DNA from: Corynespora cassiicola
Lineage: Eukaryota; Ascomycota; Dothideomycetes; Pleosporales; Corynesporascaceae
Direction: 5' to 3'
DNA length: 64,000 nt
Assembly (NCBI GenBank): GCA_022059125.1
Contig: JAEUWY010000002.1
Coordinates: forward strand, 1,178,001-1,242,000
Below, piece after piece: positions 14,905 to 47,368 of the stretch; the stretch's first letter is position 1, and every line of letters starts with the position of its first letter. A model generated the notes under the pieces. The model was not told the origin of the DNA. It was given only the letters and a program-made list of their open reading frames with translations, and did no database searches. The translations under genes and the position numbers were made by a program.

Positions 14905-16870
14905 ATGGCATCTTCACGGCTCAGTGTGTTGGCTTTTCTAGGTCTCCTTGCTAGGTATGCTGGAATGCTTCGACGGTATTGATATTTCTAACGGTCGCAG
15001 CGTGCACACATTGCCTGCGGCTATCCCAAAGCCTAGTAATAATATTGGGCTGGGTAAACCTACATACAGCATCAGCTGGGACCTGGGTCTGCCACAGCCT
15101 ACCGAGGAACCAGAAGCGCCAGAGCCAGCACCCTACCCTCCAGTTCCGGCCCCTCAACCGAGCGACCATATTAGTCTATCTCCGCCATCTTTCTCGGTTA
15201 GCTGGGATGGCAGTCCAGCCCCAACGGCAGTTCCTGAGGAACCAGAGTACCCTCCTCCCCCGCCAAATCCCAGTGATCAGATAAGCTTGGGCCCGCCATC
15301 CTTTACCATCAGTTTTGATCCAGGCTTTCCTGAGCCGACTGAGGCCCCTGAAGATCCAGAGCAGCCGGAGCCAACAGTAGATCTGCCTGGTCCTCCTAAT
15401 CCCAGTGATCAAATCAGTCTCGGCCCTCCTTCTTTCTCTATTAGCTTTGATCCAGGTTTTCCGGAGCCTACAGACGTGTCAGAAGAACCAGAGTCTACTC
15501 CAGCTCCACCTTCCCCACCCAAACCAAGCGATGAGATCAGTCTTAGCCCACCGTCTTATTCCATAAGTTGGGATCCTGGATACACACCACCAGCAAGCAC
15601 ATCTGCTGTGAAGACCAAGACAAAAAGGCCATGGAAGCCTACTCGACGGCCATTTCCATTCCCACCTAAGCCTAAGCCAACGGATCAGATCAGTCTTGGT
15701 AAGCCTGTTGCAAGTATCTCTTGGGCTATCAAGAGGCAAGACGACGAGCCTGAACCCACGGATTTTCCAGAACTTCCAGATGACCCCGCATTTCCGGAAG
15801 ATCCTGAATTCCCCGACGATCCTGAAGGTCCAATTATAATTGCACCCTCTCCTCCCCCGCCTCCTCCTAACAGCATTGGCATTCAACCTCCGGTTGCGAC
15901 CATCTCCTGGGGGAAGCGTGAGCCTGAACCACAAGGAAACACAATTGGCCTCGAGTTTCCGACCGCCATCGTAACATGGTGGACCAAAAAGCCACAACCC
16001 CCCAAGTCTTCCGCATATATTTCATGGGGTAAGCGCGAGGCTGAAGCCGAAGCCGAAGCCCAAACCAACACCATCGGCATAATTGTTCCAACACACCCTC
16101 CATCAAATCCATGGGACCCTCCAGCCGGCCCCCCTCATTCGGGATACATATCCTGGGCCAAGCGAGACCCCGAGCCCACCGAAGTCGCAGCTCCAGCATC
16201 ACCAAGACAAATCGGCCTTACTCCGCCAAAGGTTTCCATTTCCTGGGGAAAACGTGGCCCGGAGCCTACCGAAGCCGTCGTCGCCGAGCCCCGACAGATT
16301 GGGCTCACGCCCCCCAAAGGTACCGTCATATGGGGAAAGCGCGACGCCGAGCCTCAGGCCAACACCATTGGCATCATCTTTCCTACTTACATTCCATTGC
16401 CGGGCCCTTTTGATCCTCCCTCAGGGCCTCCGCATTCAGGCTATATATCCTGGGGCAAGCGAGACGAGGTCGCCACAGATACCTTGGCATCTACAAACGT
16501 CCGGCCCACCCCTATCACAGATTCCTCCAAGCCGTCCAAGTATCTCTGTCCCGCTACTATTACTGCGACAGTAATTCCTGTCTGTGAGCCTCCCATGTGC
16601 CCGCACGGACAGATAGCTTGTGATTTGAATCTCCCGGTTCCTGTCTTGAAGAAAAGAACTCGATCTAAAGAGGAGGGAATAGTAATTGAGAAGAGGATTG
16701 TAACTGTCAAGACGAAGACAGTGAACCTGCCGGCGCCGACGCCAATCAAGCCGACGAAACCAGTACCAGTGCCAAATTCATGCAGCAAAACGGTGACCAA
16801 GACTGTTATAGGTGCGTGCCCAACGTATACTTGTGTGCCGTGGTGTGAAGCAGTACAAGTTGTGCGATAG
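14905..16870 (+). CDS. Secreted repeat protein, candidate Kex2-processed multi-peptide precursor
   Basis: I know no named family for this gene. Two exons, 14905-14954 and 15001-16870 (639 aa); the intron has donor GTATGC, branch TCTAAC and acceptor CAG. Splicing joins the signal peptide MASSRLSVLAFLGLLAS to the repeat region; without it the frame has no secretion signal. About 12 units begin (N/D/R)-x-I-x-L and carry a core of the form IGLxPPxxSISW. In the first five units the core is followed by acidic Pro/Glu linkers (WDPG/FDPG). From the sixth onward it is followed by a dibasic site: IKRQ near 15730, then W-G-K-R or W-A-K-R near 15910, 16027, 16156, 16243, 16333 and 16452. E-P or E-A dipeptides follow several of them (KREAEAEAEAQT), as in alpha-factor precursors cut by Kex2 and trimmed by dipeptidyl aminopeptidase. 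A C-terminal domain of about 120 residues has eight Cys. Expression, cleavage and peptide function are inference. Confidence 0.82.
15040..16475 (+). repeat. About 12 diverged tandem coding repeats inside the precursor gene
   Basis: Protein-level repeats of about 23-55 residues with conserved cores and variable proline-rich spacers. Representative cores: NNIGLGKPTYSISW, DQISLGPPSFTISF, DEISLSPPSYSISW, NSIGIQPPVATISW, RQIGLTPPKVSISW and RQIGLTPPKGTVIW. Two units are longer and nearly identical in their second half (GPPHSGYISW). Unit length varies, so this is an old and diverged array, not a recent tandem duplication. The Ser/Thr-x-Trp end is the most conserved part. Confidence 0.85.
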
Positions 16871-21345: not shown

Positions 21346-22248
21346 CTATTCATCCAACTCATCGCACTGTCGTCCCTCGAAACCCAAACCACTGCATGTT
21401 ATGCTCTTCAAACAACCACTCCTCCTTCCGTTCCATCCGCTCAGGCGGCTCGCGATGTCGTTCGAGTAGTACTGGTTCTTGTCGATGCCACCGTCGGCTT
21501 CCGTCAAGTTATCGCTGGTGATGGCTCCCGCATTGTAAATGTGGGCAGCAGCGAAAGGGTTGCCCCTCCAGAAGTCATCGGGGTTAACCCACTTGAGGTC
21601 GTCATCGGGGGCATCGAAGTAGTGAGCGAAACCAGGCCAGCCCTTGGTAGCGCCAACTTCTTCGTTCCTCGGGGTACCGTATACGCCGTCCTCAATCATG
21701 TGTCGAATGCTCTCCTTGGTGCTGTTGCTCTGAAATTCACGTGACCCTCGGATCTGCATGATGCCGCAATCGCTGTTCTCTGCACCAGTGCAAGCCACGT
21801 TGACGTTGCCGGTGGATTCTTGCATTATCAGTGCAAGAATCAACCTGGCGTCAACGAAGCTCTCGCGAGAGACGTCAACGATGGCATCCTTGATTTCCTT
21901 GGTGACGTCCGTGGTCCTATTGTTAGTACAGTTATTGGAAAGGGATATCTCGCCTTCGTTAATTTGCCAGAGCTGTTCAAAGCTCAACCACTCGTTCATT
22001 TTGGGATAATCGTCCATCTTCGGGCCTTTGCAACTGTAGATGTCTCTCGGCTTCTCCGATATGTTGACAGCTTTCTGCTCATTTACATCGGTGTACCACT
22101 CCTTGCGGAGGCTCTCCCGGAGCACAAAGCTGTTGTCAGCATATGGATTGGCTTTGATCTCAGCGTTGGGCAGGCGACGGGGTCGGACGTATGGTAGTGC
22201 AGAAGATAATTGAGCGAATATGAGGGAGATAACGATAAAGTAAATCAT
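21346..22248 (-). CDS. Secreted lysozyme-like / lytic-transglycosylase-fold (GH23-type) protein
   Basis: Intronless 300-aa protein with an N-terminal signal peptide (MIYFIVISLIFAQLSSALP, cut near residue 19). The central part carries the hallmark of the SLT/GH23 lysozyme fold: ARLILALIMQESTGN, whose Glu in Q-E-S is the expected catalytic acid, followed about 20 residues later by DCGIMQIRG, the G-[ILV]-[MF]-Q-I motif. Downstream YNAGAI and the Cys near the C terminus are consistent with an extracellular, disulphide-stabilised fold. Family knowledge: GH23 enzymes cleave peptidoglycan glycan strands, so a fungal secreted version could act against bacteria; a chitin-type substrate is also possible. 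Flanked downstream by the WD40 gene and upstream by about 0.9 kb and then the transposon. No codon-use oddity is obvious by eye. Confidence 0.82.
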   Translation of the reverse strand: MIYFIVISLIFAQLSSALPYVRPRRLPNAEIKANPYADNSFVLRESLRKEWYTDVNEQKAVNISEKPRDIYSCKGPKMDDYPKMNEWLSFEQLWQINEGEISLSNNCTNNRTTDVTKEIKDAIVDVSRESFVDARLILALIMQESTGNVNVACTGAENSDCGIMQIRGSREFQSNSTKESIRHMIEDGVYGTPRNEEVGATKGWPGFAHYFDAPDDDLKWVNPDDFWRGNPFAAAHIYNAGAITSDNLTEADGGIDKNQYYSNDIASRLSGWNGRRSGCLKSITCSGLGFEGRQCDELDE

Positions 22249-23135
22249 GATGGATAGCGCAAGTAGTGTGGGTAGTGTTGCAGAAAAGATTTGTGGGTAA
22301 TGCTGTGGGTGAGGGGGTTAGTAGGATGTTGTCTTTCAAGACACTGGAGAGTAAAGCTGCAGCGAAAAGGCTCTTTTATCATGGCCACGATGAAAAGCAA
22401 TGATATCGTGCCACCTGCCGGTGAACACAAGCGATCAACGGTTGTTGCCTTGCGGGGTAAATTCTCAGAATCAATATCATGGCGAGAAGTATGCTATCTG
22501 GTCTCTCCATGTCTAGAGGCAAAGGGCTGACACTATAGTGGAAACAAGATATCATAACAAACAACCCAGCGTAGTAGTGATAACCCGTAACGTAGAAGAC
22601 TCGACTAAAGAGAGTTCTCCGGAATATTCGTGCGGTGTAAAAGGTTGAGTCGAAATTGTGATTGACTGTCCGACTTTGTCTGGGCGAGCTCGTGAAAACA
22701 GTTGATCTGTCTTCACCCTTTGCTTTTTGAGGAGAGCTTGATGATGATTGGATGTCCCAGAGCCAAATCCTATGGCGAAAAGATTTGGCTCATCCAACAC
22801 ACCAACCCCAGACCGGTATCTTGGAACAGATTTTCTTCAACGTGGCTACGGTGTGACTGCAAGTCCCTTGGCCTTTCGAACAATCGATGATGCTCAACAA
22901 GAGCCAAGGAAGAAGGGGTTTGCACGGCGTGCTTGCAAAGTAATATGGATGAAAATGGATCGCAAAAATTGGTCAAGACGCAGGATCATTCAATTTAGAC
23001 AAAACACACAGTCTGGTCGTTTCGTATTTTCTCGTCGAGCCGAAATTTGCAAAGCCGGACGTTTTGTTGTATCACTCCTATGAATTACTTTTTCGCTTAG
23101 CACTGCAATGCACCTGACGTAAGCCCGGTTATTCT
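22249..23135. other. Intergenic, promoter of the lysozyme-like gene up to the transposon
   Basis: About 890 bp with only short frames lacking coding pattern. The first part is the promoter of the lysozyme-like gene. The element's left TA target duplication lies immediately after, at 23136-23137. Confidence 0.4.
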
Positions 23136-44391: not shown

Positions 44392-45833
44392 CTACAAGGC
44401 CAGAATACCAGCCACCATGACCGCCACCACACTCATGCCCACTCCGACACGGCTCGCCGCTCCCGTGAACGGAGCTGGCGTGTACGTCTTGTAAGGCGCC
44501 GATCCCGTGGAGCTCGCCGTACCGGTAGGATAGACGGCGGTGCTGTTGGCCGCTCCGTAGGGCGGAGCGTGTGCATCCTTGGTCGGCACGGGCACCTTGG
44601 TCAGAGTGATGACCTTGACGATCGTACTCGTGGCCGTTTCCTCGGGCAGCTCGGGGACGGCCGGGCCAGTCGGGTAAGCGACTGGTGCGGCCTGTGTCTC
44701 CTTGGTGTCCACAGGATAGTCAGCTGGCGGAGAGGCAACCGGGTATTCAGGAGCTGGTTGAGACGCAGCTGGATACTCTGGAGCTGGCTTGGAGGCGCCT
44801 GGGTACTCAGCGGGTGGCTGGGAAGCAGCCGGATAATCAGCGCCCGGCGCCTCGGGGACCTTGGTTGGGTAGTCGACGGGCTTGGTCAAAGTCACAGTAG
44901 TGGTTGCAGGGCCACAGTGCGTGCACACTGTAACGGTCGTAGTCCAACCTTCTGGAACCTCACCAGGCGTAGGCTTAGCTGTCGGGCATACGGGGCAGAC
45001 GGTCTTGGTAATCGTGGCAGTGACGGTGGTAAGGCCAGTGGGGCAAATGTCGACGTATGTAGCTATTCAAAAATTAGTAAAAAGAAGGCCGTAGCATTTC
45101 TATTCGGCATGACTTACTTGTGATAACCGTGGTCGTCGTTGTCGGGTAGCTAGGAGGCTGCTCAGGCTTATCGGTGATCGAAGGGCCAGTGGGATAGCCT
45201 TCGTAGCCAGAGGTGGAGCTAGGCACATCCTCCTTGGAAGAAGAAGAAGAAGAAACGGGATATTCGGGAATGCTGGCGGAGGAACTGGAAGCTGGGTAAG
45301 GAGCTCCGGTGCTTGAAGTCGAGCATGGAGTGGAAACAGAGATTTCCGTCGACGAGACAGAAGAGCTTGCGCCAGTTGGAACTGGGACAGTGGCACTGCT
45401 GTCAGTTGACGAGGGAATGATGGAGGTTCCATCGGTCGTGGAAGGAACGACAGAGGTACCATCAGTTGTAGAGGGAGGAACGACGGAGGAGCCCTCGGTT
45501 GTGGAAGGAGGAACGACGGAGGAGCCATCAGTCGTGGAAGGAACAACCGAAGAACTTTCAGTTGACGAGATCCCCGTAGAGATGCCACCAGTGGGGTGCG
45601 TCATGGTCGAGTTCGATCCGGTAGGGAATGGAGGCAGCTTGCTGGAAGAAGAGCTGGTCACAGGGGTGCTTGAAGCCGAAGACGAGGTGCTTTCCGCCGT
45701 GCTCGAAGCCGACGATGAAATAGTGGTTGGCAGCGTTGAGCTTGATACATAAGTAGAAGCAGACGACGACGACAATGAAGGGGTCGCAGTGGACGACAGT
45801 GACGACGAGGGCTTGACGGAAGAAGATAGGGAA

Positions 45834-45865
<32 letters not shown>

Positions 45866-47368
45866 AGGCTTGACAGTAGATGAAAGAGACGAGGACGACG
45901 GCTTAACAGTAGACGAGGTCGAAGACGGCGTAGGGCTGGGGGATGACGAAGGCTTGATGCTGGAGGACGACGAAGACTTGATGCTAGAAGATGACGAGAC
46001 GGTAGAAGACGGCTTCAGGGTAGCGGTACTGGTGATCACCGAGCTGCGAGTAGACGAAATCTTGGAAGAGGTCGTGCGGATCGTGGAAGGAGCCAGCGTA
46101 GAAGACGAAGTAGGGGGGCAGACCTCAGTGAAGGTCTTGCCTGTCCACTTTCCGGAGAGAATCTCCTTGATCCAAGTCATGTAGCCCTTGCCACACTTCT
46201 TGTTCCTCTCGGAAACAGTGGCTTCCCAAAGCATTACACCTCCGAAGATGCTGCTGTGTTTCCTCTGGTAGAAGGAGACCAGGGCGTTGGCTTCGGTTGG
46301 AGTCAGGTAGTGGTGGGGGTAAGCTGCACCAGCTCCAGCAACACCGGCAGGCTGTTGATTCGTCAGTCGATATTGCTGCAAAAAAGGGGAATACGAGTCT
46401 TACCAATCCCAGGTAGAGCTTCACTCCCTTATTCTTCGAGTTTGCATTCAGCCACGCAACCCAAGCATCAAAGGTAAAGGTGGTAGACCCCTTGTTCAGA
46501 CCATTGTATCCGTCTCGGGCGCTGCACCCGTTCGTGTTGTAGAACTGGGTGAAGATAAAATCAAAGTTCGAGTTTTTGATGGCATCAGCAAGTCGCTCGT
46601 CGGGAGACAAACATTGGGGTGCACCAGAAATGTAGTACTTGGGGAGGGGGCCTTTGGGGAATAGGTTGGTCGTAAGGTGGTTGACAAAACGAGCATAATT
46701 GGCCCATTTGTATGTAGGGAACGGTTCGGGTGACATGTGAGCTTCGAGGTCAAGATCAAAACCATCGACTGCTGCACTGCCGAACGGACGAGGTTTGTTG
46801 CCCCAGGCATCCGTCTTTGGACCAAAGGCACCCCACAAAAATTCGGCCAAATAGACCGCCACATCGGCATTGGCAAGATAGTAGTCAGTTGGTTGCCTAC
46901 ATAGTGTTTAGATAGGATTCCTATCAACAGCATTGGTCACTTACCCGCCGCCGATGGACAGCAAGACCTTCTTGCCATTCGCGTGACAGGTGTTGATGCC
47001 CTGCTCTATTGAGGGACACATGCTGTAAAGCTTGCTTGGTTTTCCATCGGGCTGGATGTAGACATCAGCCCAACAAGCATTCCCTAATTACATGTCAGTC
47101 ACTGGCACACAGGAGGTGATCGGTCCCTCGTACCAAAGTTTGACCCTGGGTAATCCCCCACTTTGGTTGGGAAGTGATTTATAAACCCAAGAACGACAAT
47201 GTCGGCACTAGGATCACTACACACTTCGCTGAGTAGCATTTGAGAATCTCCCTGTCCCCAGTAGACAACCGCGTTCTGGTTAGAGGCAGCATTGAAGGCA
47301 GCGGAGGTGGTGTAGGCAAAAAGGCCTGCGACTGCGAGAGCCGCACGTGAGAGATTGACTGGATACAT
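44392..47368 (-). CDS. GPI-anchored class III-type chitinase (GH18) with Ser/Thr-rich stalk
   Basis: Five exons: 47368-47134, 47083-46945, 46896-46404, 46351-45118 and 45062-44392 (2,772 nt, 923 aa). Signal peptide MYPVNLSRAALAVAGLFAYT, then the GH18 barrel: NAVVYWGQGD, VLGFINHFP, KKVLLSIGGG and the catalytic DGFDLDLEAH (D-x-x-D-x-D-x-E, so the acid is intact), with IFGGVMLWEATVSERN near the end of the barrel. A stalk of about 250 residues almost wholly Ser/Thr follows; part is coded by a (GAC)n run at 45835-45865 that reads poly-Ser, and part by repeats like SSVVPPSTTDG. A Cys-containing segment, Pro-rich repeats (EYPAASQPAP) and a hydrophobic tail (GVGMSVVAVMVAGILAL) suited to GPI attachment end the protein. 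Likely a cell-wall-bound enzyme for hyphal wall remodelling. Confidence 0.94.
45835..45865. repeat. Trinucleotide (GAC)n run coding poly-Ser
   Basis: About ten uninterrupted GAC units on the plus strand, read as GTC-type Ser codons on the coding strand of the chitinase stalk. Such runs are length-variable between isolates. Confidence 0.85.

Follow-up and report, generated by a model that had tools for sequence, protein, structure and literature searches.

A candidate KEX2-processed repeat protein of Corynespora cassiicola with predicted Trp-Gly-ending peptides, and its relatives in the Pleosporales

The product of a gene in a 64,000-nt stretch of Corynespora cassiicola DNA (the window) is most likely a secreted precursor, one that would be cut into several peptides ending in Trp-Gly. 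Judged from its sequence, the product is probably a Kex2-processed member of the KEX2-processed repeat proteins (KEPs), releasing peptides of the form (pyro)Gln...Trp-Gly. KEPs have been a named class since 2019-2020, with 838 types and 2560 stand-alone KEPs published (Le Marquer 2019, PMC6339444; Umemura 2020, PMC7329392). Within this known class, the window protein belongs to an unusually built family. Like published KEPs, it has a predicted signal peptide, similar pieces between Lys-Arg (KR) sites and, in part, Ste13-type dipeptides; unlike them, it has long, imperfect repeats, early repeat cores that are left uncut, and an eight-Cys tail that is common to its relatives.

The original prediction read the locus as a Kex2/Ste13-type multi-peptide precursor of no named family. 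This is still the best interpretation, and 30 homologues add weight to it, but the class already had a name, the predicted cut sites lie only in the later repeats, and the pieces differ in length from those proposed. The window protein matches no Pfam family above cut-off. Literature searches on the repeat motif and on KEPs of Dothideomycetes and Pleosporales, covering titles and the starts of abstracts, returned no paper on this family, which may already stand, unnamed, in the supplementary KEP tables of the published surveys.

Gene structure and repeats of the window protein

The gene comprises two exons on the + strand that join in frame to encode 639 aa (Table 1), and the locus has a stop-free reading frame of 642 codons. 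The 46-nt intron contains CTAAC, a branch-point-like site. Hydropathy (best 12-residue value 2.33 in the signal-peptide region) and the similar starts of several homologues point to a signal peptide without a membrane anchor, as expected of a KEP. Splicing at 14954/15001 is supported indirectly by the homologues: the N-terminus of P0009, MAPSRNTVLALLGLVTSIQAIPAA, resembles that of the spliced window protein, and the protein readings of P0007, P0010, P0012 and P0013 carry unrelated residues before SI(Q/R)A(I/L)PAA, which is what reading on into an intron at the corresponding position would give. The homologues also speak against a chance open reading frame. In the genome (44.35 Mb, 23 contigs), the long gene is present in one copy and is its own sole DNA match.

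Table 1. Features of the window gene (window coordinates) and of a second, smaller gene
Feature	Position	Strand	Remarks
Exon 1	14905..14954	+	start codon and most of the predicted signal peptide MASSRLSVLAFLGLLA
Intron, 46 nt	14955..15000	+	GTATGC...CTAAC...CAG; position supported indirectly by homologue N-termini
Exon 2	15001..16870	+	includes stop codon at 16868-16870
Uncut zone, five cores of SxSW/F-D type	15038..15574	+	no dibasic site after any core
Cores of the uncut zone	15038-15082, 15164-15208, 15275-15319, 15407-15451, 15530-15574	+	pattern and profile
Piece 1 of cut zone	15650..15736	+	end ISLGKPVASISWAI-KR
Piece 2	15737..15919	+	Q start, acidic Pro-rich spacer, then NSIGIQPPVATISWG-KR
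Piece 3	15920..16036	+	EPEP-Q... start, W-W-T-K-K inside, end AYISWG-KR
Piece 4	16037..16165	+	EAEAEAEA-Q... start, end GYISWA-KR
Piece 5	16166..16255	+	DPEP... start, inner Pro-Arg before QIGLTPPKVSISWG-KR
Piece 6	16256..16342	+	GPEP... start, inner Pro-Arg before QIGLTPPKGTVIWG-KR
Piece 7	16343..16462	+	DAEP-Q... start, end GYISWG-KR
C-terminal region, 8 Cys	16463..16867	+	no CC pair; two further KR sites without preceding Trp
Second small KEP-like gene, L020 1374-1896	G000:C5:1123354-1123876		compact repeats such as DLPKDKIELGKPSTEITWG-KR

The repeat core, I-x-L-x-x-P-x-x-x-(I/V)-x-W/F, occurs in ten full copies by pattern scan; with a profile made from the cores of the homologues, 14 stretches are detected, of which 10 lie above the inclusion level. 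Seven later pieces end in Trp-x(1-2)-Lys-Arg and measure 27-59 aa without the KR. The W.KR motif occurs six times in the protein, whereas 10,000 shuffles average 0.02 and reach 2 at most. What follows the seven sites is X-A or X-P in five cases (E-P, E-A, D-P, G-P, D-A), Q in one and D-E in one; such dipeptides behind KR are a mark of alpha-pheromone precursors, and across the family they open 50 of the 87 sites without a direct Gln. Removal of successive X-Ala/X-Pro pairs reaches Gln at four of the seven window sites. At two of the other three, the dipeptides run into Thr-Glu, but further on a Pro-Arg directly precedes Q-I-G-L-T-P-P-K; at the last, the residues are D-E-V-A. Peptides of 14 aa such as QIGLTPPKVSISWG would need an extra cut at Pro-Arg.

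Most of the original prediction for this gene holds: the signal-peptide exon joins the repeat exon in frame, and the intron position agrees, indirectly, with the homologue starts; its "about 12 repeats" was a fair count; and its claim of at least seven later repeats ending at a dibasic KR is borne out by the seven pieces. It had also placed E-A or E-P behind several KR sites. The dipeptide pattern is there, but strictly E-A or E-P appears only twice; likewise, the proposed peptide lengths of 14-40 residues cover part of the range of the KR-bounded pieces.

A KEP is expected to give at least four pieces upon cutting at KR or RR (Le Marquer), at least three of them similar; further published rules ask that repeats make up 15% or more of the protein (Le Marquer) or apply a 60% identity threshold (Umemura). 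The window protein gives 12 pieces. In a similarity test of pieces 1-6, with piece 7 left out, pieces 1, 2, 5 and 6 match mutually (z 3.5 to 15.7) and pieces 3 and 4 match each other (z 8.3), while 4 of the 15 pairs have z below 1.5. Among 675 codon pairs from the ten window cores, 115 are identical, 213 differ silently and 347 change the residue; silent differences in 213 of the 328 same-residue pairs argue that the core copies are old and have been kept at the protein level.

Homologues and the eight-Cys tail

Two word-based searches, each scoring just the candidates that shared most words (7992 and 7989), gave 25 homologues and then 5 more. They are 28-45% identical to the window protein; some are incomplete, and P0026 hardly differs from P0027. 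Organism names are attached to 12 of the 30, and the seven checked taxonomically (Neocucurbitaria, Delitschia, Lophiotrema, Melanomma, Periconia, Karstenula and Byssothecium) all belong to the Pleosporales, in seven families. A search with the Cys tail alone recovered three proteins, all already known, even though the tail is present in 22 of the 31 family members; the word search is therefore insensitive, and its results cannot be read as absence from Alternaria, Bipolaris, Pyrenophora or others. In the genome itself, the match at G000:C6:3436168 is weak (E 0.153).

The window tail has the spacing C-x11-C-x4-C-x6-C ... C-x11-C-x4-C-x3-C. Read by eye, the family spacing is C-x10-11-C-x4-C-x6-7-C ... 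C-x10-12-C-x4-C-x3-6-C in 22 of 31 proteins, and in the remaining nine the tail is truncated or different. Ten members (P0003, P0006, P0015-P0018, P0020, P0023-P0025) have at least 13 Cys, compared with at most nine in the others among 26 proteins compared; they carry extra Cys groups beside the common tail. Hydrophobins contain eight Cys with two CC pairs. A CC pair occurs in one of the 31 proteins (P0018) and is absent from the window protein, and none of the 28 members scanned with Pfam gives a hydrophobin match, so a hydrophobin is rejected. A PDB sequence search with the tail gave a chance-level match only (E 0.51). Structure prediction, with an alignment of 28 of the 31 proteins (all but P0022, P0029 and P0030), yields no confident fold (mean pLDDT 44.4, pTM 0.22); the model fits a disordered pro-protein, but any low-complexity wall protein as well.

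A predicted cut rule common to the family

The 31 proteins contain 228 Lys-Arg sites, of which 186 are preceded by Trp-x, and 157 of these read W-G-K-R, the Gly position being held by another residue at the other 29; shuffled sets contain a mean of 0.745 W.KR. (It should be noted that these counts cover related proteins and describe the family rather than independent trials.) Gln stands directly behind 99 of the 186 W-x-KR sites. Counting also the sites at which X-Ala/X-Pro dipeptides come first, 131 lead to Gln, compared with 5.9% for random starts, and the stripping rule fails at 55. Of the 87 non-Q sites, 50 open with one such pair or more and 43 with two, against an Ala plus Pro background of 25%. 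Overall, 124 of 508 R have Q as the next residue, with Q making up 3.4% of residues. The counts point to two common kinds of piece, KR-Q-acidic spacer-core-WG and KR-(E/D-A/P)n-Q-...-WG. The 161 predicted pieces with lengths of 20-120 aa have a median length of 41 and a median net charge of -5, with 128 negative, and their hydropathy is -1.09 in the head and -0.12 in the last 12 residues, a modest split. Spacers differ greatly in length.

Early and later cores differ in whether a cut site follows. Among the 24 of 31 proteins with at least five cores and both kinds of core, an uncut core precedes a cut one in 307 of 369 pairs (in shuffles the fraction averages 0.498 and does not exceed 0.648), and two uncut cores stand first in 21 of the 24; KK, RR and a single Arg before D or E were also scored as cuts. 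An early-uncut, later-cut layout that is common to relatives is not just local repeat decay. The five early cores of the window protein, which keep the core sequence without a cut site, are not accounted for by a model of pure release.

Processing enzymes and a second gene

The genome holds one match to the Kex2-type P-domain, in a frame with a membrane stretch, and four matches to DPPIV_N. Ste13 has a single membrane stretch, as does one of the two DPPIV_N frames examined. A search for plant-type glutaminyl cyclase with a single family, PF05096, found no match in the genome; the Gln would then have to close spontaneously or through another enzyme.

Clustered I-x-W-G-K-R is found at only two places in the genome, the window gene (four hits) and C5:1123586/1123655 (two); other occurrences are 11 single hits, compared with 7 in a control. 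The second place is the small KEP-like gene L020 (Table 1), which by eye has a signal-like start, an intron and six cores, the last ending D-I-T-W-G-stop. The core pattern recognised one of them. The profile found seven stretches, two of which are halves of one core, with a total score of 12.8, where 2000 shuffles do not go beyond 10.4, and no single stretch significant. The similarity to the window gene is no more than suggestive of a common origin. From the W-G-stop end it would seem that W-G is also the terminus of the mature peptides after loss of the KR.

Gly-Lys-Arg, found in the window family, also looks like the amidation signal of animal neuropeptide precursors. Unlike these, L020 ends W-G-stop and the family has non-Gly residues at 29 of 186 sites; metazoan-type amidation is disfavoured by the L020 end. 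PHM (PF03712) gave no match in the genome, nor in any control genome.

Proposed processing and comparison with known precursors

Once the signal peptide has been removed, a Kex2-type protease in the Golgi would cut behind every Trp-Gly-Lys-Arg in the later zone, and a Kex1-type carboxypeptidase would take off the Lys-Arg. A Ste13-type dipeptidyl aminopeptidase would then trim X-Ala/X-Pro pairs from the front as far as the Gln, which could close to pyroglutamate. Most of the resulting peptides would be acidic and rich in Pro, becoming less hydrophilic towards their ...I-x-W-G end. For the early cores, the probable fate is release as a product of their own or, with the eight-Cys tail, a role as a pro-part. 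We infer secretion, cutting, trimming, Gln closure and action outside the cell from the sequence rules and enzyme-family matches given above.

Parallels for such products come from agarics, in which peptidomics is described as detecting KEP peptides with pyro-Gln starts and a C-terminal Trp (Vogt 2022, PMC9769878). As in the predicted window peptides, there are Ste13 sites, trimming at which was inferred from the products; in Pichia expressing KEPs, cutting after a single Arg was suggested (PMC9769878). The agaricomycete Trp-ended peptides differ, as described, in being 7-8 aa long, from another phylum, and without Gly after the Trp. Motif 4 of Le Marquer, YVW(G/A)(G/S), from Pezizomycotina, resembles the window core in having hydrophobic residues and then W-G, a likeness that compares the short core only. 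All six Coprinopsis KEP knock-outs reported as tested fruited normally (PMC9769878); a visible role is therefore not to be expected of every KEP peptide.

Most KEP types in the larger survey are described from a single genus (PMC7329392). The present family occurs in at least seven Pleosporales families, and with its two-ended cut rule and early-uncut, later-cut layout it is a good candidate for a peptide of basic importance to these fungi. The cut rule also predicts exact peptide masses.

Possible functions

Most likely the peptides have an extracellular role that concerns the fungus itself, as a hyphal-surface coat or as a self-signal, and these two readings are nearly level. The first, a tentative one, supposes repellent-like amphipathic peptides that are released by Kex2 and lie on the hypha with no receptor, as with Ustilago maydis Rep1. 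Rep1 is described as a 652-aa protein whose 12 imperfect repeats are amphipathic, most of its peptides being 35-53 aa, and Hum3, of unknown function, as combining repeats that bear putative Kex2 sites with a hydrophobin domain behind them (PMC4617103). In overall build, size and imperfect repeats with Kex2 sites are similar, and Hum3 too ends in a Cys-rich domain; the piece lengths overlap (family median 41), with a modest hydropathy split. The window tail lacks the CC pair, and the Ste13 signature, strong in the window family, is absent from Rep1 as described (PMC6339444). A coat would also leave the uncut zone unexplained.

The second reading, also tentative and slightly less probable, is that of a signalling peptide precursor, hormone-like or serving as the mating alpha-pheromone of the lineage. 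Ste13-type dipeptides are described for alpha-pheromones (PMC6339444), and ascomycete alpha-pheromone precursors likewise place KR and X-A/X-P before the peptide; the uniform-looking Gln...Trp-Gly ends, the single copy of the long gene and a STE2 match in the genome also suit a signal. The known Pleosporales pheromone pattern gave 0 hits in the genome and 2 in a control, and a relaxed pattern gave 12 and 14, with no cluster, although such searches do not establish that the genome lacks a normal pheromone. Against this, the window protein differs from those precursors in core motif, length, Cys tail and uncut zone, the last again unexplained. It lacks the Pleosporales core PYG(L/M)P(I/V)G, and, with no Cys in its repeats, it is not of the two-Cys type either. 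Long pieces and imperfect repeats, together with the Cys tail, pull towards the coat.

A more speculative and improbable proposal is that the uncut head cores stay together and bind the same partner as the released peptides, so that the precursor would be both the source of a ligand and its built-in multivalent version, in an old, order-wide Pleosporales system in which the long gene and the small second one yield peptides protected by pyroglutamate in front and by Trp-Gly behind.

It is also unlikely that the protein is a Pro-rich, acidic structural or wall component which always stays whole and in which KR spread with the repeats. The conserved uncut cores of the early zone, the Cys-rich tail and the disordered model would suit such a protein, but W-G-K-R followed by Gln or X-A/X-P recurs at many sites in proteins of 28-45% identity, and the core copies are old and kept at the protein level.

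A dikaritin/ustiloxin-type RiPP precursor cyclised by UstYa is highly improbable and is rejected: the genome has 26 pieces matching UstYa (PF11807), but the window has none, about 1.5 Mb separate it from the closest one on its contig, and the core has no constant Tyr.

Genome context

The original prediction was right that the protein does not fit the Tyr-core ustiloxin pattern, and that neither UstYa nor a pheromone receptor lies nearby, the single STE2 match being on another contig. Some UstYa matches lie close together (C5:131863 and 133091; C1:1331411, 1332204 and 1335665) and may mark dikaritin-type clusters elsewhere in the genome. A Pfam scan of eight neighbouring frames found patatin/DUF3336, TsaD, a fatty acid desaturase, an NAD-binding dehydrogenase and a zinc finger; two frames had sub-threshold matches only and one had none. 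In the window, a signal-peptide-like frame at 21346-22317 (-) has a sub-threshold match to SLT transglycosylase (E 0.00059, 19.8 bits against a cut-off of 21.3). Frames at 44392-46907 (-) contain a GFDLDLE motif and a long Ser/Thr-rich tail, and may belong to a chitinase-type protein.
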